The notes beneath the pieces were generated by a model. That model saw only the letters and a program-made list of their open reading frames with translations, searched no databases and was not told where the DNA came from. A stretch of 64,000 nucleotides of DNA. It comes from Burkholderia sp. lig30 (GTDB lineage: Bacteria > Pseudomonadota > Gammaproteobacteria > Burkholderiales > Burkholderiaceae). Where the stretch lies: NCBI RefSeq assembly GCF_000687455.2, contig NZ_JGVW01000087.1, forward strand, positions 1-64,000. Direction: 5' to 3'. This document shows positions 52,068-64,000 of the stretch, one piece after another; the stretch's first letter is position 1, and every line of letters begins with the position of its first letter. The position numbers were made by a program, and so were the translations under genes.

Positions 52068-52086
52068 CCATACCTGGCAGGTATGG
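52068..52086 (+). promoter_or_regulatory. LysR-type (BenM/CatM-like) operator
   Basis: A perfect 19-bp palindrome CCATACCTG-G-CAGGTATGG contains ATAC-N7-GTAT (52070-52084), the binding consensus of BenM and CatM. Its centre (52077) lies about 65 bp before the predicted transcription start near 52142, the usual recognition position for LysR-type activators. Confidence 0.8.
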
Positions 52087-52135: not shown

Positions 52136-52170
52136 TCCGTTCCATGAACTTCACTCACGCAGCTTCCGCC

Positions 52171-53313
52171 ATGACCTCAGCGACGATTGAACGCATCGAA
52201 ACCTCGCTCGTCGATCTGCCGACGATTCGCCCGCACAAGCTTTCGGTCGCCACGATGCATGGACAGACCCTGATGCTGGTGAAGGTGTACTGCAGCGATG
52301 GCGTCGTCGGTATCGGCGAAGGCACCACGATCGCCGGCATGGCCTACGGCCCGGAAAGCCCCGAGGCGATGAAGCTCGCGATCGACACGTACTTTGCTCC
52401 GGCGATGATCGGCAAGGATGCCGAACGAATTCAGGCGCTGATGGAGCACCTCGGCAAGCTGATCAAGGTCAATCACTTCTCCAAGAGCGCGCTCGAAACC
52501 GCGTTGCTCGATGCGCAAGGCAAGCGCCTTGGCGTGCCGGTGAGCGAATTGCTCGGCGGTCGCCGGCGCGAGCGCCTGCCGGTCGCGTGGACGCTGGCTT
52601 CCGGCGATACCGCCAGGGACATCGCCGAAGCCGAGACGATGCTCGACGTGCGCCGGCACAAGGTCTTCAAGCTGAAGATCGGCGCGAAGGAACTGAAGAC
52701 GGACATCAAGCACGTCGCCGACATCAAGAAGGCGCTCGGCGACCGCGCCGCGGTGCGCGTCGACGTCAACATGGCCTGGAGCGAGACGCAGGCTGCGTGG
52801 GCCATTCCGGCGCTGGCCGATGCCGGCTGCGAACTGGTCGAGCAGCCGGTGGCGTCCGCCGCGGCGCTGGCGCGCCTGATGCGCCGGTTCCCGGTCGCGT
52901 TGATGGCCGACGAGATCCTGCAGGGGCCGGAAAGCGCATTCGAGATCGCGAAGCACCATGGCGCCGACGTGTTCGCCATCAAGATCGAACAAAGCGGCGG
53001 GCTCTTTGCCGCGCAGCGCGTGGCCGCGATCGCCGACGCGGCAGGTATCGAGCTCTATGGCGGCACGATGCTCGAAGGTGCGTTCAGCACGATTGCATCG
53101 GCGCATCTGTTCGCCAGCTTCGCGAAATTGCAGTGGGGCACCGAATTGTTCGGGCCGTTGCTGATCACCGAAGAGATCCTGACCACGCCGCTGGATTACA
53201 GCGACTTCGAATTGACCGTGCCGAACGGCCCGGGCCTGGGTATTGAACTCGACGAAGCCAAGGTCAGGCATTTCACCCGCGACGGGCTGACGAAAGTCAC
53301 GAAGTCATCCTGA
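52171..53313 (+). CDS. catB: muconate cycloisomerase
   Basis: This 380-aa enolase-superfamily enzyme lactonises cis,cis-muconate to muconolactone in the catechol branch of the 3-oxoadipate pathway. It shows PTIRPHKLSVATMHGQTLM at the N-terminus, catalytic Lys167/Lys169 in FKLKIG, metal ligands in RVDVNMAWSE, LVEQPVA and MADEILQGP, and the AIKIEQSGG Lys. The start at 52171 gives MTSATIERIETSLVDLPT; the ATG at 52144 would be leaderless. It is the first gene of the cat-ben run. Confidence 0.95.
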   Translation: MTSATIERIETSLVDLPTIRPHKLSVATMHGQTLMLVKVYCSDGVVGIGEGTTIAGMAYGPESPEAMKLAIDTYFAPAMIGKDAERIQALMEHLGKLIKVNHFSKSALETALLDAQGKRLGVPVSELLGGRRRERLPVAWTLASGDTARDIAEAETMLDVRRHKVFKLKIGAKELKTDIKHVADIKKALGDRAAVRVDVNMAWSETQAAWAIPALADAGCELVEQPVASAAALARLMRRFPVALMADEILQGPESAFEIAKHHGADVFAIKIEQSGGLFAAQRVAAIADAAGIELYGGTMLEGAFSTIASAHLFASFAKLQWGTELFGPLLITEEILTTPLDYSDFELTVPNGPGLGIELDEAKVRHFTRDGLTKVTKSS

Positions 53314-53336
53314 CATCCAGCAAGAGGAACCTGACG

Positions 53337-53627
53337 ATGCTTTTCCACGTACGCATGGACGTGAATCTCCCGGTCGACATGCCGGCCGATGTCGCCAATG
53401 AAATCAAGACGCGCGAGAAGGCGTATTCGCAGGAACTGCAGCGCAGCGGCAAGTGGCGCCATATCTGGCGCCTCGTCGGCGAGTACGCGAACTACAGCGT
53501 CTTCGATGTCGAGAGCAACGCGGAACTGCACGACATCCTGACCGGCTTGCCGCTGTTCCCGTACATGGAGATTTCGGTGACGCCGCTGTGCCGTCACCCG
53601 TCGTCGGTTCGCGACGGCGATGCCTGA
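53337..53627 (+). CDS. catC: muconolactone delta-isomerase
   Basis: This 96-aa enzyme converts muconolactone to 3-oxoadipate enol-lactone, and its homologues form a decamer. The family wording MLFHVRMDVNLP, REKAYSQELQRSGKW, WRHIWRLVGEYANYSVFDV and LPLFPYMEISVTPLCRHPSS spans the whole length. AGAGGA lies before the ATG. It sits 23 nt after catB. Confidence 0.96.
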   Translation: MLFHVRMDVNLPVDMPADVANEIKTREKAYSQELQRSGKWRHIWRLVGEYANYSVFDVESNAELHDILTGLPLFPYMEISVTPLCRHPSSVRDGDA

Positions 53628-53705
53628 GCCTGGGAGACGGTCGCCCTTCTAGAGCGAGCGCGTCCCGAGTCGTTTTATTCGGAAAACTAAATGGAGACAG
53701 TCATC

Positions 53706-54641
53706 ATGAACGTCAAAGTATTCGAAACGAAAGAAGTGCAGGATCTGCTGAAGGTCGCGTCCAACCTGGACGGCAAGGATGGCAACGCCCGTTTCCAGCA
53801 GGTGCTCCATCGTCTGTTGAGCGACCTGTTCAAGGCCATCGACGATCTCGACATCACGCCCGATGAAGTGTGGGCCGGCGTCAACTACCTGAACAAGCTC
53901 GGCCAGGACGGCGAAGCGGCGCTGCTCGCCGCGGGCGTCGGCCTGGAGAAGTATCTCGACATCCGCATGGACGCCGCAGACCAGGCGGCCGGCATCCACG
54001 GCGGCACGCCGCGCACCATCGAAGGCCCGCTGTATGTCGCGGGTGCGCCGGTGCGCGAGAGCATCTCCAGAATCGACGTCAATCCCGACTCGGACGCAGG
54101 CCCGCTGATCATCCACGGCACGGTCACGGGCCCGGACGGCGAGCCGGTCGCCGGCGCGCTGGTCGAATGCTGGCATGCCAATTCGCACGGCTTCTATTCG
54201 CACTTCGACCCGACCGGCGCGCAGAGCGACTTCAACCTGCGCGGCGCGGTCAGGACCGGCGCCGACGGCAAGTACGAATTCCGCACGCTGATGCCGGTGG
54301 GCTACGGCTGCCCGCCGCACGGCGCGACGCAGCAGCTGCTGAACGCGATTGCCCGCCACGGCAACCGTCCGGCGCACGTGCACTTCTTCGTCACCAGCAG
54401 CGACTACCGCAAGCTGACCACGCAGTTCAACATCGAAGGCGATCCGCTGACCTGGGACGACTTCGCGTACGCGACCCGCGAGGGGCTGGTCCCGCCGGTG
54501 GTCGAGAAGACCGGTGGCGCAGCGCTGGGCCTGAAGGCCGACACGTACAAGGACATCGAGTTCAACTTCAGCCTGACCTCGCTGGTGCAGGGGAAGGACA
54601 ACCAGGTCGTCCAACGTCCGCGGGCTTCGGCCGCGGCGTAA
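53706..54641 (+). CDS. catA: catechol 1,2-dioxygenase
   Basis: This 311-aa intradiol dioxygenase opens catechol to cis,cis-muconate with Fe(III). The iron ligands fall at Tyr164 (NSHGFYSHF), Tyr200 (VGYGCPP), His224 and His226 (RPAHVHFFV), the same numbers as in the Acinetobacter enzyme. A helical N-terminal linker (1-100) binds lipid and mediates dimerisation in homologues. The start at 53706 has GGAG upstream. It stands between catC and benA. Confidence 0.96.
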   Translation: MNVKVFETKEVQDLLKVASNLDGKDGNARFQQVLHRLLSDLFKAIDDLDITPDEVWAGVNYLNKLGQDGEAALLAAGVGLEKYLDIRMDAADQAAGIHGGTPRTIEGPLYVAGAPVRESISRIDVNPDSDAGPLIIHGTVTGPDGEPVAGALVECWHANSHGFYSHFDPTGAQSDFNLRGAVRTGADGKYEFRTLMPVGYGCPPHGATQQLLNAIARHGNRPAHVHFFVTSSDYRKLTTQFNIEGDPLTWDDFAYATREGLVPPVVEKTGGAALGLKADTYKDIEFNFSLTSLVQGKDNQVVQRPRASAAA

Positions 54642-54652
54642 CAGCCCGACGC

Positions 54653-54679
54653 GGCGGCGGCACGGCACGTGCCGCCGCC
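54653..54679 (+). other. intercistronic hairpin between catA and benA
   Basis: A perfect 11-bp stem GGCGGCGGCAC/GTGCCGCCGCC with a 5-nt loop and no T-run lies in the 117-bp gap. It may mark a processing or partial-termination point that adjusts cat against ben expression. Confidence 0.65.
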
Positions 54680-54758
54680 ATCGATCCCCAGCAGGGATCA
54701 TTCGACACCGATGCGAGCACTCCGGGCAGGGCCGGAGCGGCGCGTAGGGAGAGGAAAC

Positions 54759-56114
54759 ATGTCCGCCATCATCGACAAAGCCAACGAACTGGATCATCTG
54801 CTCGCCACTGCGGTGCAGGATGACAAAGAGGCCGGTGTATTCCGTTGCCGTCGCGATATTTTCACCAACGCCGAGTTGTTCGAGCTGGAGATGAAACACA
54901 TCTTCGAGAGCAACTGGGTGTACCTGGCGCATGAAAGCCAGGTTCCGAACAACAACGACTACTACACCACGTGGATCGGCCGTCAGCCGGTGGTGGTCAC
55001 GCGCGACAAGAACGGCGAGCTGCACGCGGTGATCAATGCCTGCGCGCACAAGGGCGCGATGCTGTGCCGGCGCAAGCACGGCAACAAGGGCAGCTTCACG
55101 TGCCCGTTTCACGGCTGGACGTTCTCCAACGCCGGCAAGCTGCTGAAGGTGAAGGACGAGAAGACCACCGAATACCCGGTGCAGTTCAACACCGAGGGAT
55201 CGCATGACCTGAAGAAGGTCGCGCGCTTCCAGAACTATCGCGGCTTCCTGTTCGGCAGCCTCAATGCGGACGTGCTGCCGCTGGAAGACTACCTCGGCGA
55301 AGCGCGGGTGATCATCGACCAGATCGTCGACCAGGCGCCGGACGGGCTGGAAGTGGTGCGCGGCAATTCCTCGTACGTCTACGACGGCAACTGGAAGATG
55401 CAGATGGAAAACGGCTGCGACGGCTACCACGTCAGCACCGTGCACTGGAATTACGCGGCGACGATGGGGCGGCGCAAGGAAGACGGCACCCAGGCGGTGG
55501 ACGCGAACGGCTGGAGCAAGTCGGTGGCGGGCGTGTACGGGTTCGAGCACGGCCACATCCTGCTGTGGACCAAGACGATGAACCCGGAAGTGCGGCCGGT
55601 CTATCGGCACCGCGACGAAATCGCGGCGCGTGTCGGCGAAGCGAAGGCGGAATTCATCGTCAACCAGACCCGCAACCTGTGCGTGTATCCGAACGTGTTC
55701 CTGATGGATCAGTTCAGCACGCAGATTCGCGTGGTGCGCCCGCTCGGCGTGGACAAGACCGAAGTCACGATCTTCTGCTTCGCGCCGAAGGGCGAGAGCG
55801 CAGCCGATCGCGCGACGCGGATCCGCCAGTACGAGGACTTCTTCAACGTCTCCGGCATGGGCACCGCTGACGACCTGGAAGAGTTCCGCGCGTGCCAGAA
55901 CGGCTATGCCGGCATCACGGCGATGTGGAACGATCTGTCGCGCGGCGCGCCGCTGTGGGTCGAGGGCGCCGACGAGAACGCGAAGAAGATGGGGCTCAAG
56001 CCGATCATTTCGGGCGAGCGCAGCGAGGACGAAGGCTTGTTCGTGTGTCAGCACGAATACTGGGTGCGGGTGATGCGCGACGCACTGAAGAAGGAACGTG
56101 AGGAGGCGCTGTGA
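54759..56114 (+). CDS. benA: benzoate 1,2-dioxygenase large (alpha) subunit
   Basis: This 451-aa Rieske oxygenase hydroxylates benzoate to a cis-diol carboxylate. The Rieske cluster ligands are Cys95/His97 ([11 protein letters not shown]) and Cys115/His118 (TCPFHGW). The mononuclear iron site has His224 and His229 in [10 protein letters not shown] with Asp221 before them. It forms an alpha3beta3 oxygenase with BenB and takes electrons from BenC. The start at 54759 has GAGAGGA upstream. Confidence 0.96.
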
Positions 56115-56602
56115 TGAGCATCGACTACCAGAAAATCTGCGCGGCGCTGTACCGTGAAGCGCGCCTGCTCGACGATCGCCAGTGGGACGAATGGCTGGCC
56201 TGCTATTCGGACAACGTCACCTACTGGATGCCGGCCTGGGACGACGACGACCAGCCCACCGACGACCACGAGAGCCAGATCTCGCTGATGTACTACCCGA
56301 ATCGGGGTGGCCTGGAAGATCGCGTGTTCCGCATCAAGACGGAGCGCAGCGGCGCGTCGACGCCCGAGCCGCGCACCAGCCACAACATCACCAATGTGGA
56401 AGTGCTGGCCGAGCGTGGGGATGAAGTGGACGTGCGCTACAACTTCCACACGCTCAACCATCGCTACAAGACCACCGACCATTTCTTCGGCACGGTGTTC
56501 GCGACGTTGCGCAACGGCGATGACGGCTTGTTGATTTCGTACAAGAAGATCGTGCTGAAGAACGACTACATCCGGCAGGTACTCGACGTCTATCACGTTT
56601 GA
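56114..56602 (+). CDS. benB: benzoate 1,2-dioxygenase small (beta) subunit
   Basis: This 162-aa subunit has the cystatin-like fold of ring-hydroxylating dioxygenase beta subunits (EARLLDDRQWDEWLACYSD, YWMPAWDDDD, SHNITNVEVLAE). It supports the alpha subunit structurally. The ATG at 56114 overlaps the benA stop by 1 nt; AGGAGG sits seven bases before it, which favours it over GTG 56111. Confidence 0.95.
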   Translation: MSIDYQKICAALYREARLLDDRQWDEWLACYSDNVTYWMPAWDDDDQPTDDHESQISLMYYPNRGGLEDRVFRIKTERSGASTPEPRTSHNITNVEVLAERGDEVDVRYNFHTLNHRYKTTDHFFGTVFATLRNGDDGLLISYKKIVLKNDYIRQVLDVYHV

Positions 56603-56642: not shown

Positions 56643-57665
56643 ATGTCCAGTTTCACAGTTGCACTGAATTTCGAGGACGGCGTCACGCGTTTCGTCGAAT
56701 GCAAGGCGGGCGAGAAGGTGCTCGATGCCGCCTTCCGCGCCAGGATCAACCTGCCGATGGATTGCTCCGACGGCGTGTGCGGCACCTGCAAGTGCCGCGC
56801 CGAGAGCGGCAGTTACGACCTGGGTGACGATTACATCGAGGACGCGCTGAGCGAGGACGAGAAGAACGGCGGCCTCGTGCTGACGTGCCAGATGGTCCCG
56901 CAGAGCGATTGCGTGATTTCGGTGCCGGCATCGTCCGCGGTGTGCAAGACCGGGCAGAGCACGTTCGCGGCGACCGTCGCGAATGTCGAGCTGCACAACG
57001 ATGCGGCCGTCGTGCTCGAACTGGACGTGGAAACCGCTGCGCCGGTGTTCCTGCCCGGCCAGTACGTCAACATCGACGTGCCGGGCAGCGGCCAGCACCG
57101 TTCGTATTCGTTCTCGTCGGCGCCGGGTGAATCGAAGGTCAGTTTCCTGATCAAGAAGATCCCCGGCGGCGTGATGAGCACGTGGCTCGAATCCGCGCAG
57201 CCGGGCGACGCGCTGGCGCTGACCGGGCCGCTCGGCAGCTTCTATCTGCGCGACGTGCAGCGGCCGCTGTTGTTCCTCGCCGGCGGCACGGGGCTCGCCC
57301 CGTTCCTGTCGATGCTGGAGGTGCTGGCGCGCGCCAATTCGCAGCAGAAGGTGCACTTGATCTACGGCGTGACCCGTGACCTCGATCTGGTGGAGGTCGA
57401 CGCGATCGACGCGTATGTGGCGAAGCTGCCGAATTTCAGCTACGCGACCGTCGTGGCCGAAGAGGCATCGAACCATCCGCGCAAGGGCTGGGTGACGCAG
57501 CACATCCCGGCCGATGCGTTGAACGACGGCGACGTCGACGTCTATCTGTGCGGGCCGCCGCCGATGGTCGACGCGGTGCGCAAGCATTTCGACGACACCG
57601 GCGTGAAGCCGAACAGCTTCCACTACGAGAAGTTCACGCCCAACGCGGCACCGAAGGCGGCATGA
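56643..57665 (+). CDS. benC: benzoate 1,2-dioxygenase electron transfer component
   Basis: This 340-aa reductase passes electrons from NADH to BenAB. A plant-type [2Fe-2S] ferredoxin domain has Cys41, Cys46, Cys49 and Cys82 (DCSDGVCGTCKC). Then a FAD domain (about 100-205, HRSYSFSSAP) and a NAD domain (about 210-330, FLAGGTGLAPFLSML and YLCGPPPMVDAV) follow. The ATG at 56643 has AAAGGAGG upstream. Confidence 0.95.
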   Translation: MSSFTVALNFEDGVTRFVECKAGEKVLDAAFRARINLPMDCSDGVCGTCKCRAESGSYDLGDDYIEDALSEDEKNGGLVLTCQMVPQSDCVISVPASSAVCKTGQSTFAATVANVELHNDAAVVLELDVETAAPVFLPGQYVNIDVPGSGQHRSYSFSSAPGESKVSFLIKKIPGGVMSTWLESAQPGDALALTGPLGSFYLRDVQRPLLFLAGGTGLAPFLSMLEVLARANSQQKVHLIYGVTRDLDLVEVDAIDAYVAKLPNFSYATVVAEEASNHPRKGWVTQHIPADALNDGDVDVYLCGPPPMVDAVRKHFDDTGVKPNSFHYEKFTPNAAPKAA

Positions 57666-58438
57666 TCATGCAGCGATTCTCCGGCAAGGTCATGGTGGTC
57701 ACCGGTGCGGCCCAGGGCATCGGCCGTGGCGTCGCGCTGCGGGCGGCCGCCGAAGGCGGCAAGGTGCTGTTCGTCGATCGCGCCGACTTCGTCACCGAAG
57801 TCGCCGCGGAAGCGGCGGGCGCGGACACGGCGGGGTTCGTGGCCGACCTCGAGACGTACGAAGGCGCGGAAGCGGCGATGGCATTCGCCGCGCAACGGTT
57901 CGGCGGCATCGACATCCTGATCAACGGTGTCGGCGGCGCGATCCGCATGCGTCCGTTCGCCGAATTCGAGCCGGCGCAGATCGACGCGGAAATCCGTCGC
58001 TCGCTGATGCCCACGCTGTACACCTGTCACGCGGTGCTGCCGCACCTGCTCAGGCGGGGCGGCGGCACCATCGTCAATGTCTCGTCGAACGCGACGCGCG
58101 GCATTCGCCGCGTGCCGTACTCGGCGGCCAAGGGTGGCGTCAATGCGCTGACGCAGTCGCTGGCGATGGAATACGCGGAACGCAACATCCGCGTCGTCGC
58201 GACTGCGCCGGGCGGAACCAGTGCGCCGCCGCGACGCGTCCCGCGCAATGCCGCGGGCGACAGCGAGCAGGAAAAGGCCTGGATGAGCGAAGCGGTGCAG
58301 CAGGTGACCGATTCGACTTTCTTCAAGCGCTACGGCAGCCTCGACGAACAGGTCGCGCCGATCCTGTTCATGGCGTCGGACGAGGCCAGCTACATCACCG
58401 GCACGGTGTTGCCGGTCGCCGGCGGCGACACGGGCTGA
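57662..58438 (+). CDS. benD: cis-1,2-dihydroxycyclohexa-3,5-diene-1-carboxylate dehydrogenase
   Basis: This 258-aa short-chain dehydrogenase oxidises and decarboxylates the benzoate diol to catechol. It has the NAD motif TGAAQGIG (14-21), NGVGG and the YSAAKGG catalytic Tyr/Lys with the Ser in VSSNATRG. The ATG overlaps the benC TGA by 4 nt; a second Met lies two codons later. Confidence 0.95.
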   Translation: MIMQRFSGKVMVVTGAAQGIGRGVALRAAAEGGKVLFVDRADFVTEVAAEAAGADTAGFVADLETYEGAEAAMAFAAQRFGGIDILINGVGGAIRMRPFAEFEPAQIDAEIRRSLMPTLYTCHAVLPHLLRRGGGTIVNVSSNATRGIRRVPYSAAKGGVNALTQSLAMEYAERNIRVVATAPGGTSAPPRRVPRNAAGDSEQEKAWMSEAVQQVTDSTFFKRYGSLDEQVAPILFMASDEASYITGTVLPVAGGDTG

Positions 58439-58459
58439 GCGCACCGTACATCGGCACGC

Positions 58460-58480
58460 GCCCGGCGTTCGCCGCCGGGC
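58460..58480 (+). other. intercistronic hairpin between benD and the Rid gene
   Basis: A perfect 8-bp stem GCCCGGCG/CGCCGGGC with a 5-nt loop and no T-run lies in the 62-bp gap. It may mark the boundary between the pathway and the downstream genes without full termination. Confidence 0.6.
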
Positions 58481-58500
58481 CTATACAACAGGGGGTATCC

Positions 58501-58899
58501 ATGAGCGATCGCAAAGCCGTCATTCCCGACGGAATGGAAGCGGTGTACGAGAAGATCCGCTATTCGCCTGCAGTCAAGGTCGGCAACACGATCTACGTGT
58601 CCGGCCAGATCGGCCGTGACGCGGCGATGCAGCTGGTCGAAGGCCGCGAAGCGCAGATGACGCAGGCGTTCGACAACCTCGAGCGGGTGCTGGCGGCCGC
58701 GGGGGCGTCGCTGCGGGACGTGGTCGACCTGACCACGTTCCATACCGACATGCGCGACCTGCCGCTGTTCATGCAGGTGCGCGACCGCTATTTCGACTCG
58801 GACCCGCTGCCGGCCTGGACGGCGGTAGGCGCGCACATGCTCGGCGGCGCGCCGGGCTACATCGTTGAAATCAAGGCTGTCGCCGTCTTGCCGGAATAA
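58501..58899 (+). CDS. RidA/YjgF-family protein with substituted active-site arginine
   Basis: This 132-aa protein matches the Rid family (YVSGQIGRD, FDNLERVLAAAGASLRDVV, TTFHTDMRDLP). In RidA the conserved P-A-R-S supplies the Arg essential for imine or enamine deamination; here it reads PAWTAVGA, with Trp106. It is therefore probably a Rid4-7 type rather than a RidA deaminase. It lies within the ben-cat run, before the GTPases; its role, possibly handling a reactive intermediate, is unclear. Confidence 0.85.
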   Translation: MSDRKAVIPDGMEAVYEKIRYSPAVKVGNTIYVSGQIGRDAAMQLVEGREAQMTQAFDNLERVLAAAGASLRDVVDLTTFHTDMRDLPLFMQVRDRYFDSDPLPAWTAVGAHMLGGAPGYIVEIKAVAVLPE

Positions 58900-59011
58900 C
58901 CCGGTGATGCGCGCCTGTCCACGGATGTGTTTCCGGAATCGCCGGGCCGCAGGCCGCATGGCCGCGCCGGCGCACGCCGCTTGAATGCCTGAAGCGTTGA
59001 GGAGCCGACCC

Positions 59012-60268
59012 TTGTCCGGAGCAATTCGCGAGCAGGCGGCACGGGATGTCGTATCCGTGTTGCCGAACCGCGCCGACGATCTGGCGCGCCTGCAGACGCT
59101 CGCCGAGGACGGCGAGCCCGTCGTCACCGTCATCGGCAAGTACAACCACGGCAAGAGCCGTCTGCTCAATGAGCTGATCGGCCGCGACACCTTCTCCGTG
59201 GCCGACCGGCGCGAGACGGTGGCCCTGTCGGGCAGCGTGCATCATGGCGTGCGCTGGCTGGATGCGCCGGGGCTGGACGCAGACGTCGGCACCGAGGACG
59301 ATCGCCACGCGTGGCAGGCGGCGTGGCTGGAGTCGGACGTCCGTCTGTTCGTGCATGCGGCGAAGGAAGGCGAACTGGACGCGAAGGAGCTGTCGCTGCT
59401 GGCCGGGCTGCGCGCAGACGGCGACAGGACGCAGCGGCAGACGTTTTTCGTGCTGTCGCAAGTGGATCAGGTGGCCGACGACGCCGAACTGGACACGGTC
59501 CGCGATGCGATCGGCGCGCAGGTGCCGGGCATCGCGCTGAACGCCGCTTCCGCCACGCGTCATCGCAAGGGCCTGGAAGGCGGGAAGGCCTTGCTGCTGG
59601 AGAAAAGCGGCATTCCCGCGTTGCGCGCCACGCTGGAGGCGGCGCTCGCCCGCGTGCCGGGGGCGCGCGCGCATGAATCCGCGTTGCTGTTCGGCGAGAT
59701 GCGCGAAGAACTGCGACAGCTTCGCGCCGGGCAGGAACACGTGCTTGACGCGTTGCGCGACACGCAGCGGCAGCAGCGGCAGGCCTACGATCAGGGCTTG
59801 AAGGCGGTCATCGACAAGGTGAGCGGCGACATCGGAACGATGCTGAATGCGCTTGGCCCGGACGACGCCTCGGTGCCGGATTCCGCAAAGGACGCGTACG
59901 CGATCACCGCGGGAAAACGTCAACGCGCACAGATCCAGATCGGCTACTCGCGCGCCTGCATCGAAATCAACGCCTTTCTGGTCGGCCACGGTGTCGTCGG
60001 TTTGCCGCCGGAGCGGCAGACCGCGGCACGCAGCCTGAACTCGGTGATGGTTGCCGTCATGGGCGTGTCCGTGAAGTACCGCCGCGACTTGCGCACGATG
60101 TTCTGCGAAGCGGCGGGGCGCGACCGCATGCAGCGCGCATTCACTCAGTATTACGAATGGTCGGATGACAGAAAGGCGTTGGCGACGCGGATTTCGGAAA
60201 CCGGGGCGGCCATTGCCGCACTGGACGGCGCGACCGCTGCGTTGCACACACTGGAAGCGGGCGCATGA
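59012..60268 (+). CDS. dynamin-like GTPase 1
   Basis: This protein of about 418 aa has a P-loop GKYNHGKS (42-49), G3 DAPG (84-87) and a G4-like SQVD (149-152). After about residue 215 it is predicted helical (REELRQLRAGQEHVLDALRD), as expected for a bacterial dynamin-like stalk. Translation probably starts at TTG 59012 with GAGGAG at 7 nt; an ATG at 58985 has no site. The stop overlaps the next GTPase start by 4 nt. It follows the Rid gene within the ben-cat run. Confidence 0.75.
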   Translation: MSGAIREQAARDVVSVLPNRADDLARLQTLAEDGEPVVTVIGKYNHGKSRLLNELIGRDTFSVADRRETVALSGSVHHGVRWLDAPGLDADVGTEDDRHAWQAAWLESDVRLFVHAAKEGELDAKELSLLAGLRADGDRTQRQTFFVLSQVDQVADDAELDTVRDAIGAQVPGIALNAASATRHRKGLEGGKALLLEKSGIPALRATLEAALARVPGARAHESALLFGEMREELRQLRAGQEHVLDALRDTQRQQRQAYDQGLKAVIDKVSGDIGTMLNALGPDDASVPDSAKDAYAITAGKRQRAQIQIGYSRACIEINAFLVGHGVVGLPPERQTAARSLNSVMVAVMGVSVKYRRDLRTMFCEAAGRDRMQRAFTQYYEWSDDRKALATRISETGAAIAALDGATAALHTLEAGA

Positions 60269-61845
60269 AAGCGGGCCTGAGCAACGAGCAGCGCTTCATT
60301 GTCGAGGTGGATTCGTTCGAGTTCATCGCGCAGGATGTCGACAAGACCCGGCGTGCGCTCGCGGACTGGCTCGCGGCATTGAACGCCGATCTTCAGGCCA
60401 GCCGTCTGGCATGCGCGGGACTGACGGAGCAGAGCGGGCTGGCGCTTCAGGCGAACGCCATCGACACCGTGTTGCGGAACGGCATGCACGCGTGGTCGCG
60501 GCAATGGTCCAGTCTGGACGCGGCTCGCGCGCTGGCCGATACCTTCGACGACAAGGTGTTGCTGCTGGTGTTCGGCAAGTTCAATGCGGGCAAGAGTTCA
60601 TTCTGCAATTTCATGGCCGAACGCTTCGCCGCGCACGGCAAGACGGTGCGGCATTTCCATCTCGACGCCGGCCGCATCGTGCAGACACCGGAACGCTTCG
60701 AGGAAGGCACGACCGAAACTACCGCGCGGCTGCAGGGTGTTTGCCTGGGTGAGAAGCTGGTTCTGCTGGATACGCCCGGGTTGCATTCGGCGACGCCGGA
60801 GAACGCGGCATTGACGCGGCGCTTCACCGAAAGCGCCGACGGCGTGTTGTGGCTGACCAGTTCCACCTCGCCCGGGCAAGTGCAGGAACTGGACGAACTG
60901 GGACGGGAACTGCATCGCAACAAGCCGCTGCTGCCGGTCGTGACCCGCAGCGACATGTACGACGAAGACGAAGTCGACGGCGAGATCCGCAAATTTCTTT
61001 GCAACAAGACCGCGCAGAACCGCGCCGAACAAGAGGCCGACATCAAGACCCGCGCGGAACAGAAACTCCGGGCGATGGGCGTCGACGCGGCGCTGCTGAA
61101 AACGCCGATATCGATCTCCGCGCACATGGCGCGCGAACAGGGGCATACGCCGGCGGCGATGATCGAGGCCGGCTTCGAGCGGCTGTACGCCGCGCTGCTG
61201 GCCATTGCCGGGCCGGCATTGTTCTATAAGCGGCGCAAGCTGGCGGAAGTATGGCTGCACCATCTGGAAGAGAACGTGCTGGGCCTGTTGTGCCGCGAGG
61301 TGTCTCCGTTGCTGGCGGCGTTGAACGCATCGTCGCAAGCCGCGCTCGCGCGGCTCGAACGGCAGCGGGAGCAGATCGTCGGCGCCGTGTGGCGCAGCGT
61401 CGTGCCGGCGCTGCCAGCATTGCTGGAAACCCATGCGGCAACGCGCGATGCGGCAGCGATCCGCAACAGCCTGTCGGATTCGGTCTTCGACGCGTTCTGC
61501 CGCGAAGCGAGCGGGCAGCTGGCCGATTACGCGGTCGAGCCGGATGCGTCGCTTGCGCGAATCCAGCTGGACGACGACGCGGGTTTCGAGGATCTCGTGG
61601 TCGACTGTTCCGGGGAAGTCAGCGACATCTGCCAGGTCGCGGGCGTCGACTACCCGCATCTGTACGCCGCGCTGGAAACGGCAATTCACAAGAACCTGCT
61701 TCGCCTGTCGAGCGATGCAGCCGAACAGTGCCGCGCTTCAATCACGCGGCTGATGGATGCCGCAACGTGTGTGAAAGACGCGTTGCGGCTTCACGAACGC
61801 GATCTGCTCGACATCAAGCGAGCATTACGCACCGAATCCGCTTGA
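60265..61845 (+). CDS. dynamin-like GTPase 2
   Basis: This 526-aa protein has an N-terminal helical stretch (1-95), then P-loop GKFNAGKS (104-111), a Thr-rich switch EGTTETTARL (147-156), G3 DTPG (169-172) and G4 TRSD (227-230). A long helical C-terminal part (about 290-520) follows; a weakly hydrophobic segment near 320 (LLAIAGPALFYKRRKLAEVW) may touch the membrane. The overlapping starts suggest it forms a heteromeric pair with GTPase 1. It is related to bacterial dynamin-like proteins such as the LeoA/DynA type by layout, not by name. Confidence 0.78.
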   Translation: MKAGLSNEQRFIVEVDSFEFIAQDVDKTRRALADWLAALNADLQASRLACAGLTEQSGLALQANAIDTVLRNGMHAWSRQWSSLDAARALADTFDDKVLLLVFGKFNAGKSSFCNFMAERFAAHGKTVRHFHLDAGRIVQTPERFEEGTTETTARLQGVCLGEKLVLLDTPGLHSATPENAALTRRFTESADGVLWLTSSTSPGQVQELDELGRELHRNKPLLPVVTRSDMYDEDEVDGEIRKFLCNKTAQNRAEQEADIKTRAEQKLRAMGVDAALLKTPISISAHMAREQGHTPAAMIEAGFERLYAALLAIAGPALFYKRRKLAEVWLHHLEENVLGLLCREVSPLLAALNASSQAALARLERQREQIVGAVWRSVVPALPALLETHAATRDAAAIRNSLSDSVFDAFCREASGQLADYAVEPDASLARIQLDDDAGFEDLVVDCSGEVSDICQVAGVDYPHLYAALETAIHKNLLRLSSDAAEQCRASITRLMDAATCVKDALRLHERDLLDIKRALRTESA

Positions 61846-61933
61846 CGGGCGCGCCGCCCCCGACGGTCCCGAAGACGAACCGTTCCGCGACGCGGCGTTG
61901 TCCGTGCGCTTCATGGTCCGCACCGGTCACAGT

Positions 61934-62878
61934 ATGAAACTTGAGTTGAGACACCTGCGTTACTTCGTGGCAGTGGCCGAAGAGCGCAACTTCACGCGCG
62001 CCGCCCAGCGGTTGCATATCGCCCAGCCACCGCTGTCGCGCCAGATCCAGCAGCTCGAGCAAGTGCTGGACGTACAGCTGTTCGAACGCAATTCGCGCCC
62101 GCTCAAGCTCACCGACACCGGCCGCTTCCTGTACTCGCACGCGGTCCAGTTGCTCGCGCAGAGCATCGAGCTCGAATCGATGACGCGGCGCGTGGGCAAG
62201 ATCGAGCGCAGTCTGTCGGTGGGCTTCGTCGGCTCGACGCTGTACGGCTTGCTGCCGAAGATCATTCGCCGCTTTCGTCAGGAGAACGGCGCCGTCGAGC
62301 TGACCCTGCATGAAATGACGACGATGGACCAGATCAAGGCGCTCAAGGAGGGCCGCATCGACGTCGGCTTCGGCCGCATCCGGCTCGAAGATCCGAGCAT
62401 CCGGCGCGTGCTGCTGCGCGAAGAGCGGATGATCGTGGCGCTGCCGCTCGGCCATCCGCTCGCCGGCGCGAAGGACGCGCTTTCGTTGTCGGATCTCGTC
62501 AACGAAACGCTGATCATCTTCCCGAAGGCGCCGCGCCCGAGCTACGCGGACCAGGTGCTGGCCGCGTTTCACGATCGCTCGCTGACGCCGCGCCGCATCC
62601 ACGAAACGCGCGAACTGCAGATCGCGCTCGGGCTGGTCGCGGCGGGAGAAGGGCTGTCGATCCTGCCGGGCAGCGTGCATGGCCTCAAGCGCGACGACGT
62701 CGCGTACAAGTCGCTCGACGATCCCAGGCTCGTGTCGCCGGTCATCATGAGCATGCGCATGCTCGACGAATCGGAGGACATCCAGCGCATGCTCGAATTG
62801 ATCTACCGGCTCTACGACGAGGAGAACATGGCGGGCGTGGCGTCGGTGGAGCGCGACGGACAATCCGTCGCGAGCTGA
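61934..62878 (+). CDS. catR: LysR-type transcriptional regulator, BenM/CatM-like
   Basis: This 314-aa regulator has an N-terminal winged HTH (1-60, LELRHLRYFVAVAEERNFTRAAQ, IAQPPLSRQIQQLE) and a two-part effector domain starting SVGFVGSTLYGLLPKII, all close to BenM/CatM, which bind cis,cis-muconate and benzoate. It lies downstream of the GTPases on the same strand, so it probably controls catB through the ATAC-N7-GTAT site far upstream. The start at 61934 was chosen from the MKLELRHL family start. It ends 6 nt before the convergent TolC-family gene. Confidence 0.85.
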   Translation: MKLELRHLRYFVAVAEERNFTRAAQRLHIAQPPLSRQIQQLEQVLDVQLFERNSRPLKLTDTGRFLYSHAVQLLAQSIELESMTRRVGKIERSLSVGFVGSTLYGLLPKIIRRFRQENGAVELTLHEMTTMDQIKALKEGRIDVGFGRIRLEDPSIRRVLLREERMIVALPLGHPLAGAKDALSLSDLVNETLIIFPKAPRPSYADQVLAAFHDRSLTPRRIHETRELQIALGLVAAGEGLSILPGSVHGLKRDDVAYKSLDDPRLVSPVIMSMRMLDESEDIQRMLELIYRLYDEENMAGVASVERDGQSVAS

Positions 62879-62884
62879 CCGGAT

Positions 62885-64000
62885 TCAGCGCGCGCCGATC
62901 GTCCCGGTCGCGAGCGCGAGGGCGGCTGCGGCCGACAACGCGCCGCAGTAGCTGTCGACGGACGCGTTCTTTGCCGCAATCAGCTGGCTTTGCGCGAGCG
63001 TCGCGTCGGTGATCGAGCCGACGCCGCTCCGGTATGCCGTCAGCGCCGCGTCGTAGCTCGTTTGTGCCGCGTCGACGAGCGCATTGGCGGCTTCGTGCGA
63101 CGCGAGGCTCGTTTGCAACGCGTTTTGCGCCGCGACGATCTGCCGGACTGCTTCTTCCTTCGTGCGCGTGAGGCGAGTCGCCGCGCTCTCCGCATCGTTG
63201 CGCGCCTGCAGCAGCACGGCCGACCGGAAACCGCCGTCATACAGCGGGAGTGTCACGCCGACGAAGACGCCCGCGCCGTACCGGCTGCCGTTCAGGTTGA
63301 CGGTCGGCGCCTGCTGGCCGATCGCCGGCAGCGCCGTGATGCCCGCGCGCCCGCTGCTGTACGACGTCGTCGCGGACGCGAACACCTTCGGCATGAATTC
63401 CGCCTCTGCTGCCTTGACCCTGGCCTGATCCGCCTGCACGGTCGCGTACGCGCTCAACAAGTCGGGGCGTCGCGCGATCGCGTCCGACACGATCTCGTCG
63501 ACCGGTGCACGAAGTGCCGGCGACAGCGGCCGTGCCGGCAGCGTGGCGATCGACGGCCTGGACAGCGGCGAGATGCCGAGCGACGACACGAGGCCCAGAT
63601 AGCTGTCGCTCTCCGCGCCGCGCGCGTCGACGAGCGCGAGATTGGCCTGCGCGCGATTCTGCGTGGCCTGCGCGACCTCGACGATCGTGCCGACGCCCTG
63701 CTTGAGCCGGGTGCGGGCGGCCAGCGCAATCGCGTCGGCATTGTCGAGACCCTGCCGTGCGCTGCGCGCGCGCGATCGCGCGGCTTCGTATCGGTAATAC
63801 GCGACCGTCACGTCGTGGATCACCTGCTGGTGAACCGCGGTGAACGCGACGTTCGACGCGACCGATGCCTGTTTCGCCGCCTCGACCCGCGCGGCGCGCT
63901 CGCCGAAGTCGAACAGCAGCCATTGCAGCGCGAGCACCGAGATGGCGCCGCGCGCCGTCGTGTCGGCCGACGCCGTGCCGAGCGGCGTCGTGGTCGAGCC
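62885..64000 (-). CDS. TolC-family outer-membrane efflux protein (partial; continues past the window)
   Basis: This minus-strand frame is open to the right edge, so the N-terminal part is missing. At least 372 residues show two OEP repeats: WLLFDFGERAARVEAAKQAS, RLKQGVGTIVEVAQATQNRAQAN and, in the second, VGVTLPLYDGGFRSAVLLQA, YRSGVGSITDATLAQSQLI. This is the outer-membrane channel of an RND or MFP-type efflux system. A GTG at 63937 lies in frame but the coding sequence clearly runs on beyond it. The partner pump genes are outside the window. Confidence 0.87.
   Translation of the reverse strand, partial: GSTTTPLGTASADTTARGAISVLALQWLLFDFGERAARVEAAKQASVASNVAFTAVHQQVIHDVTVAYYRYEAARSRARSARQGLDNADAIALAARTRLKQGVGTIVEVAQATQNRAQANLALVDARGAESDSYLGLVSSLGISPLSRPSIATLPARPLSPALRAPVDEIVSDAIARRPDLLSAYATVQADQARVKAAEAEFMPKVFASATTSYSSGRAGITALPAIGQQAPTVNLNGSRYGAGVFVGVTLPLYDGGFRSAVLLQARNDAESAATRLTRTKEEAVRQIVAAQNALQTSLASHEAANALVDAAQTSYDAALTAYRSGVGSITDATLAQSQLIAAKNASVDSYCGALSAAAALALATGTIGAR

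Follow-up and report, generated by a model that had tools for sequence, protein, structure and literature searches.

The window analysed here, the whole 64,000-nucleotide (nt) stretch of Burkholderia sp. lig30 DNA (contig NZ_JGVW01000087.1), contains near its end a pair of genes for dynamin-like GTPases, DLP1 and DLP2, within a string of catechol (cat) and benzoate (ben) catabolic genes that runs catB-catC-catA-benA-benB-benC-benD-rid-DLP1-DLP2-LysR regulator on the + strand (Table 1). An earlier sequence-only reading had described two GTPases lying after benABCD and rid and before a BenM/CatM-like regulator, and this setting was borne out, the BenD equivalog model being passed and BenM being the best model for the regulator; the catB-catC-catA genes (52144-54641) heading the same string had not been listed. 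That reading had also found no transporter in this part of the cluster, in agreement with our inspection by eye of the open reading frames (ORFs) between benD and the regulator.

Both ORFs were present with the complete P-loops, the DAPG and DTPG motifs and the 4-nt overlap that had been claimed for them. DLP1 carries G1 GKYNHGKS, G3 DAPG (in DAPGL) and G4 SQVD, and DLP2 carries G1 GKFNAGKS, G3 DTPG (in DTPGL) and G4 TRSD, with about 95-100 amino acids (aa) preceding its P-loop region. Across the 49 aligned members of each protein, G1 and G3 vary little or not at all, TRSD of DLP2 is invariant, and the DLP1 G4 motif keeps Q and D in 49/49 members, S in 25/49 and V in 24/49. DLP2 passes the Pfam Dynamin_N profile (E 3.2e-10; 40.7 bits against a cut-off of 27), whereas DLP1 exceeds the MMR_HSR1 cut-off (E 3.8e-7) but stays under that of Dynamin_N (23.5 of 27 bits). 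The DLP1 homologue of Acinetobacter baylyi does pass Dynamin_N (33 bits), and DLP1 and DLP2 show distant kinship across the GTPase domain (hhalign probability 92%). With a G1-G4 GTPase domain and a Dynamin_N match, the pair falls within the dynamin superfamily as judged from sequence, and there is good reason to regard its members as dynamin-like GTPases. The most hydrophobic conserved 11-residue stretch of DLP1 by hydropathy, SVMVAVMGVSV (residues 353-363, numbered from 58985), precedes basic residues and is a candidate membrane contact.

An ATG at 58985 would give DLP1 a length of 427 aa, but the TTG at 59012, the start put forward by the sequence-only reading, is the more likely one, since an AGGAG lies 7 nt upstream of it (59000-59004) and the annotated Acinetobacter homologue begins at the same alignment column. 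Of 75 related loci counted, 57 have a possible DLP2 start codon exactly at the 4-nt overlap position (five of the 80 named loci described below were removed by a length filter). The simplest reading is that DLP1 and DLP2 form the last part of a single cat-ben operon, because the gaps are short and a single operator-like site, ATAC-N7-GTAT, which we take to be the BenM/CatM site consensus, precedes catB. Simple promoter and terminator scans found sites no more numerous than in shuffled sequence, and none in the rid-DLP1 gap.

Table 1. Features of the cat-ben gene string at the end of the window
Feature	Position	Strand	Evidence or remark
Candidate BenM/CatM-type operator, ATAC-N7-GTAT	52070..52084	+	Starts 74 nt before the catB start; sole exact copy in the 64 kb window
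catB, muconate cycloisomerase	52144..53313	+	MR_MLE_N and MR_MLE_C matches
catC, muconolactone isomerase	53337..53627	+	MIase match, E 5e-43
catA, catechol 1,2-dioxygenase	53691..54641	+	Dioxygenase_C and Dioxygenase_N matches
benA, benzoate dioxygenase large subunit	54669..56114 (longest ORF)	+	Pfam profile match
benB, benzoate dioxygenase small subunit	56111..56602	+	Pfam profile match
benC, reductase	56643..57665	+	Pfam profile match
benD, diol dehydrogenase	57668..58438	+	NF040811 BenD equivalog (NCBIfam) above cut-off; start picked inside a longer ORF (57548-58438), near the beginning of the NCBIfam match
rid (YjgF/RidA family)	58501..58899	+	Ribonuc_L-PSP match
DLP1, short dynamin-like GTPase	59012..60268; alternative start 58985	+	MMR_HSR1 match, G motifs
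DLP2, dynamin-family GTPase	60265..61845	+	526 aa; Dynamin_N match, G motifs
LysR-type regulator, BenM/CatM-like	61898..62878	+	Best model NF040709 BenM, E 6.4e-97, below the strict cut-off; ATG at 61934 agrees better with the model start than 61898

Behind the regulator, on the - strand, the end of the window (62885-64000) and the DNA just past it (L154:419-4106) encode an outer-membrane efflux protein, a FUSC-family protein and an HlyD protein, a set that resembles aromatic-acid efflux. A major facilitator superfamily (MFS) gene with an OATP match lies about 4.7 kb past the window end (L154:4666-6057).

Relatives of the pair in catechol and benzoate loci

When named genomes were scanned with a DLP1 alignment, 90 relatives emerged among 129 pattern matches, and the best 80 of the 90 (44-74% identity to DLP1) were kept, with neighbours sought by tblastn using the window proteins; as the seed alignment was built from cat-linked members and the best 80 of 90 were examined, the scan could favour the cat-linked clade. 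These relatives span three classes, the alpha-, beta- and gammaproteobacteria, and come from Burkholderia, Paraburkholderia, Caballeronia, Pararobbsia, Herbaspirillum, Comamonas, Variovorax, Diaphorobacter, Acidovorax, Alcaligenes, Bordetella, Achromobacter, Paenalcaligenes, Xanthobacter, Xanthomonas, Pseudoxanthomonas, Acinetobacter and others. CatA lies near the pair in 73 of the 80 loci and some ben or cat gene in 79. Among the seven without CatA, three have benABCD (L113, L115, L117), one has benD (L114) and two have catB with upstream DNA missing (L109, L123); the last (L106), whose DNA begins 162 bases ahead of the DLP1 match, showed no ben or cat gene.

Samples drawn by taxonomic rank, blind to gene context and overlapping in part with each other and with the named set, gave a consistent picture. 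Seventeen regions were opened from the genus and family samples (14 family matches besides that of the window and three genus matches, weak ones included, some from genomes also among the named 80), and 12 contained CatA, the remaining five being the locus L038 and four weak matches; counted over clear relatives, 12 of 13 had ben or cat genes. The order sample contained five matching genomes among 399, all five in ben/cat loci (the window included, and one placed there solely by a benD match at 6.4 kb), and the single match among 369 genomes of the class sample was the window itself. In the phylum sample 12 of 398 genomes matched, two at full length, one as a fragment beside cas1 and cas2, and nine in the GTPase domain only; seven of these nine were opened, no region gave a ben/cat match at E 1e-5, and the domain-only matches fall outside the cat-linked clade. 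Thirty-seven plasmid records matched DLP2, six over most of its length, and the four of these six that were opened all lie in catA clusters.

As a control, other Dynamin_N genes were sought in 61 genomes of the genus, and none of the six matches, in four other genomes, lay within 10 kb of a CatA match, in a search that was not exhaustive and missed the known pair of genome G057. In one genome without the pair (G059), a different Dynamin_N gene stands about 21 kb from catA (C5:153302-175694), probably by chance. The placement of the pair beside catechol and benzoate genes is not due to chance, and the linkage is firm. Occurrence in random contexts had been named beforehand as an outcome that would speak against a pathway role, and the close relatives were not randomly placed; their presence in ben/cat loci supports a role in the pathway and disfavours the unrelated captured module that had been offered as the other option.

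The arrangement around the pair varies. DLP2 shares the strand of DLP1 in 79/79 called genes and catA in 69/69 among the named loci, and the nearest labelled upstream gene is catA in 33 loci (at no more than 400 nt), benE in 13, rid in seven, and others in the rest, with benD, catD or a benK-like gene among the other nearest labelled neighbours. Several Acinetobacter loci have the order catA-DLP1-DLP2-catM-catB. Since neighbours are rearranged between loci, plain frozen synteny does not describe the association, and such recurrent co-directional placement with cat and ben genes in distant lineages is that of a ben-cat accessory gene. Among 59 loci with about 10 kb on each side, catA is present in 26 for which clustering gave no benABCD gene (two of these, L080 and L100, hold a BenD-like gene at 47-48% identity), indicating that the common factor is probably catechol ortho-cleavage rather than benzoate. 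A swap of the pair for a transporter was not supported, as benE and benK-like genes co-occur with it in many loci, a benK-like MFS gene being found in the flanks of 35 of the 80. Exact ATAC-N7-GTAT sites number 79 across the 80 loci as a raw count: 60 lie close to where catB, catA, benA or the regulator begins, one falls in the 300 nt ahead of DLP1, and 15 have no labelled gene nearby.

Both genes are under purifying selection. The ratio of non-synonymous to synonymous substitution rates (dN/dS) was 0.044-0.163 for DLP1 (seven pairs), 0.069-0.399 for DLP2 (nine pairs) and 0.020-0.158 for CatA, far under 1 in each pair tested, with higher values for the two GTPases than for CatA. Identities across loci correlate at r 0.92 between DLP1 and DLP2, close to the 0.96 between BenA and BenC, and at 0.72 (DLP1) and 0.66 (DLP2) with CatA. 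The GC content and third-position GC content of the two genes (0.673/0.827 and 0.641/0.797) are only slightly unlike those of the ben genes. Capture by a mobile element was considered and rejected, as the DNA around 58400-62900 has only short imperfect matches and no long flanking repeats.

Losses and decaying copies also occur. In Caballeronia terrestris (L073, the same locus as L036) DLP1 is broken and no DLP2 match was found; L039 holds only a short remnant, and in L123 DLP1 lies in two frames. Clear breaks were found in three of the 80 named loci (L073, L119, L123). The L119 copy, in Xanthomonas arboricola pv. populi (L119:10001-11230), has DLP1 in two frames, where the stop codon closing the first part overlaps an ATG that could open the second; the gene may be split naturally or have broken recently. 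Some lineages keep the pair under selection, as an optional accessory.

Possible roles of the pair

Both reading frames are open and conserved; in three classes of proteobacteria the pair lies with catA and points the same way, and its members co-vary. Our results raise the possibility, which we hold tentatively and at somewhat less than even confidence, that this is a heterotypic dynamin-like pair belonging to the catechol ortho-cleavage cluster and limiting damage to the inner membrane by aromatic intermediates. A membrane role is what we infer for the pair, and its most likely place of work is the inner membrane during catechol flux. Muconate or benzoate, acting through the BenM/CatM-type regulator, would switch on the operon so that both proteins are made; DLP1 and DLP2 could then assemble with each other, as the Campylobacter DLP1 and DLP2 do, and the complex could bind the inner membrane, with the hydrophobic segment of DLP1 as a conceivable contact, and use GTP to remodel or seal membrane disturbed by catechol, its quinones or benzoate at high flux. 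A rather improbable variant is that the pair seats CatA at the inner membrane, feeds CatA from it, or shapes the domains where catechol is made and cleaved; if true, a toxic lipophilic diphenol would be handled at the membrane before spreading, in a bacterial metabolon organised by dynamins.

Several observations weigh against membrane protection as the role of the pair. CatA is present in 61/61 genomes of the genus sample and the pair in 3/61 (a fourth weak match, covering 95 residues, is not counted), so that 58 of the 61 carry CatA without it and the pair is dispensable; four related genomes (L186-L189) have catB-catA-benABCD-rid without the pair, and genome G050 has it behind one catBA copy (L028) and lacks it in a second ben-cat cluster (L190). 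The named loci share descent and are not 80 independent events, and partial correlations do not single out CatA (DLP1-CatA given BenA 0.70; DLP1-BenA given CatA 0.59). A PDB search with a 49-member DLP2 profile, read up to E 1, gave no dynamin, its top rows being coiled-coil matches, and the DLP1 profile ranked Era/Der GTPases first and dynamins at E 0.05 or worse. Finally, L038 stands outside ben/cat loci, in an island with AAA ATPases, although its DLP2 relative shares 47% identity with DLP2 across about 420 residues.

The main rival, which we consider possible but doubtful, is that the pair, or DLP1 alone, helps CatA itself by assembling, lipid-loading, reactivating or membrane-tethering the enzyme. 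CatA crystal structures with bound phospholipid are known. The commonest direct neighbour of the pair is catA, and it accompanies the pair in the 26 well-flanked loci that lack benABCD by clustering. Escherichia coli muconate strains carry 'catA and auxiliary ACIAD1443' (PMC4570557), the latter being a probable DLP1 homologue. This rival must nevertheless accommodate the 58 genus genomes in which CatA does without the pair, some of these CatAs being 82-84% identical to that of the window. A CatA tree of 98 rows addresses whether pair-bearing CatAs stand apart: pair presence needs at least three changes on it (two forced by starred branches), against a shuffled mean of 23.8, and pair-minus CatAs, though clustered, do not form one side of any branch. 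The clustering says little, because all 27 pair-minus rows come from the window's genus; the tree took only the 30 genus CatA matches given as loci, of which L175 was dropped for a stop and L171 left out as a pair-bearing copy. In the accessible text of PMC4570557, moreover, no effect of ACIAD1443 is stated and no second GTPase gene is named. Unlikely, and a little more so than the CatA-seating variant, is that the two are passengers hitch-hiking with a mobile ben-cat operon, as their patchy distribution (3/61 in the genus, 5/399 in the order sample) and the decaying copies (L073/L036, L039, L123) might suggest; purifying selection acts on both genes, however, clear breaks occur in only three of the 80 named loci, and neighbours vary from locus to locus while the pair persists. 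A helper of uptake or export, which would assist the cluster's porins or aromatic acid transporters, for instance through the organisation of membrane domains, is slightly less probable still: it could draw on benE directly upstream in 13 loci and the benK-like gene in 35 of 80 flanks, but many loci have the pair right behind catA with no labelled transporter nearby, and inspection of the window by eye showed none in the stretch from benD to the regulator.

Least probable is a captured anti-phage module, LeoABC-like or of dynamin-type defence, driven by the benzoate promoter, which we regard as very unlikely for this clade. The PADLOC LeoA profile matches 49/49 members in each of the DLP1 and DLP2 alignments and LeoBC also gives matches, but those of the window pair are partial (LeoA: DLP1 21-283 of 427, DLP2 31-371 of 526) and modest in strength (E 2.5e-15 and 2e-12). 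Distant relatives do stand in defence-like settings, beside cas1 and cas2 (L138), beside CRISPR-associated genes (L025) and on a Klebsiella plasmid (L026), as does the closer relative in the AAA island (L038). The clade of the pair is nonetheless nearly fixed to one catabolic pathway, with 79 of the 80 named relatives in ben/cat loci rather than in defence islands or phages and L038 as the exception; a search of 50,697 phage records gave no match to DLP2, and neither did viral contigs scanned by pattern.

The distant settings differ in gene content. In L138 (L138:2004-4025), a truncated GTPase gene at a contig end, the nearest DLP1 relative outside the clade in the phylum sample, adjoins cas1 and cas2, and repeats seen by eye only lie at the other contig end. 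On a Photobacterium plasmid (L025:8489-13184, beside the CRISPR-associated genes) and the Klebsiella plasmid (L026:6381-9581, between IS26 copies), a GTPase gene, a gene for a small Ser-rich protein starting MWWL and a dynamin gene follow one another. L038 (L038:9144-19279) encodes, in one direction, a GTPase (270 aa), a small protein whose N-terminus is hydrophobic, the homologue of DLP2, then a third dynamin-like GTPase, and two AAA ATPases. The idea that DLP1 fuses the GTPase with the small middle protein of these three-gene modules (L025, L026, L038) was rejected on profile comparison probabilities below 5%; the split DLP1 of Xanthomonas arboricola (L119) keeps the idea alive. In a DLP2 tree of 83 rows made by a quick method, the two plasmid-borne distant relatives fall outside, and L038, the sole close relative away from ben/cat, groups within the cat-linked set, beside the member from Xanthomonas arboricola (support 99, on a long branch). 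This is a hint that genes were exchanged between catabolic and defence-like settings, whichever the direction.

Returning to protection of the inner membrane as the favoured role, bacterial dynamins are, to our knowledge, widespread and few have a known task. The known close members of this pair lie nearly all in one well-studied catabolic cluster, that of Acinetobacter baylyi included, offering a clean route to dynamin function because inducer, toxic intermediate and partner enzyme are all known.

Comparison with known systems

The names 'catX' and 'catAX' belong to older muconate work; they were not found in the open-access literature searched. Two GTPase genes have been placed in the CatM/BenM regulon of Bordetella petrii, with no function given, and described as having distant homologues in operons that hold catA in A. 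baylyi ADP1 and catBCA in B. glumae BGR1 (PMC6449761, accessible text); that 2019 paper covers three genomes, of which only A. baylyi (L102) was compared here, and it nowhere uses the word dynamin. Since DLP1 follows catA in L102, ACIAD1443, whose presence on the plasmids of the E. coli muconate strains is reported in the accessible text of PMC4570557, may be read as the A. baylyi DLP1 homologue, so that muconate production would already have carried one of the pair beside catA as an 'auxiliary' gene. In the open-access literature seen, with subscription literature mostly outside the scope, nothing was found that names these GTPases dynamins or tests them.

LeoA and LeoBC, known in PADLOC and, for LeoA, from enterotoxigenic E. 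coli, are the best PADLOC matches of both proteins. The window pair nevertheless matches about half of the LeoA profile and differs from LeoABC in gene content and context, with two genes rather than three and no full-length LeoA, LeoB and LeoC set.

IniA of mycobacteria and DynA of Bacillus subtilis are not known to lie in catabolic operons. They resemble the pair as dynamin-like proteins tied to chemical stress on membranes (for DynA, PMC6104087; the sources for both are partial), but respond to different inducers, and IniA reached only E 0.14 in the DLP1 profile search.

The closest parallel in layout is that of Cj-DLP1 and Cj-DLP2 of Campylobacter jejuni (PDB 5owv, 5oxf), which according to the accessible text of PMC6104087 are two different dynamin-like GTPases encoded by adjacent genes of one operon; a single-sequence PDB search with DLP2 gave one weak match, to a Campylobacter DLP (E 0.015). 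The Campylobacter proteins are larger, 84.5 and 71.2 kDa as purified against 427 and 526 aa here, and their operon is not catabolic (PMC6104087, accessible text), unlike the ben-cat setting described above. DLP1 and DLP2 nonetheless share the heterotypic plan, being two distinct adjacent genes whose overlap is possible in 57/75 loci, whose identities co-vary (r 0.92) and which are predicted to lie in one operon.

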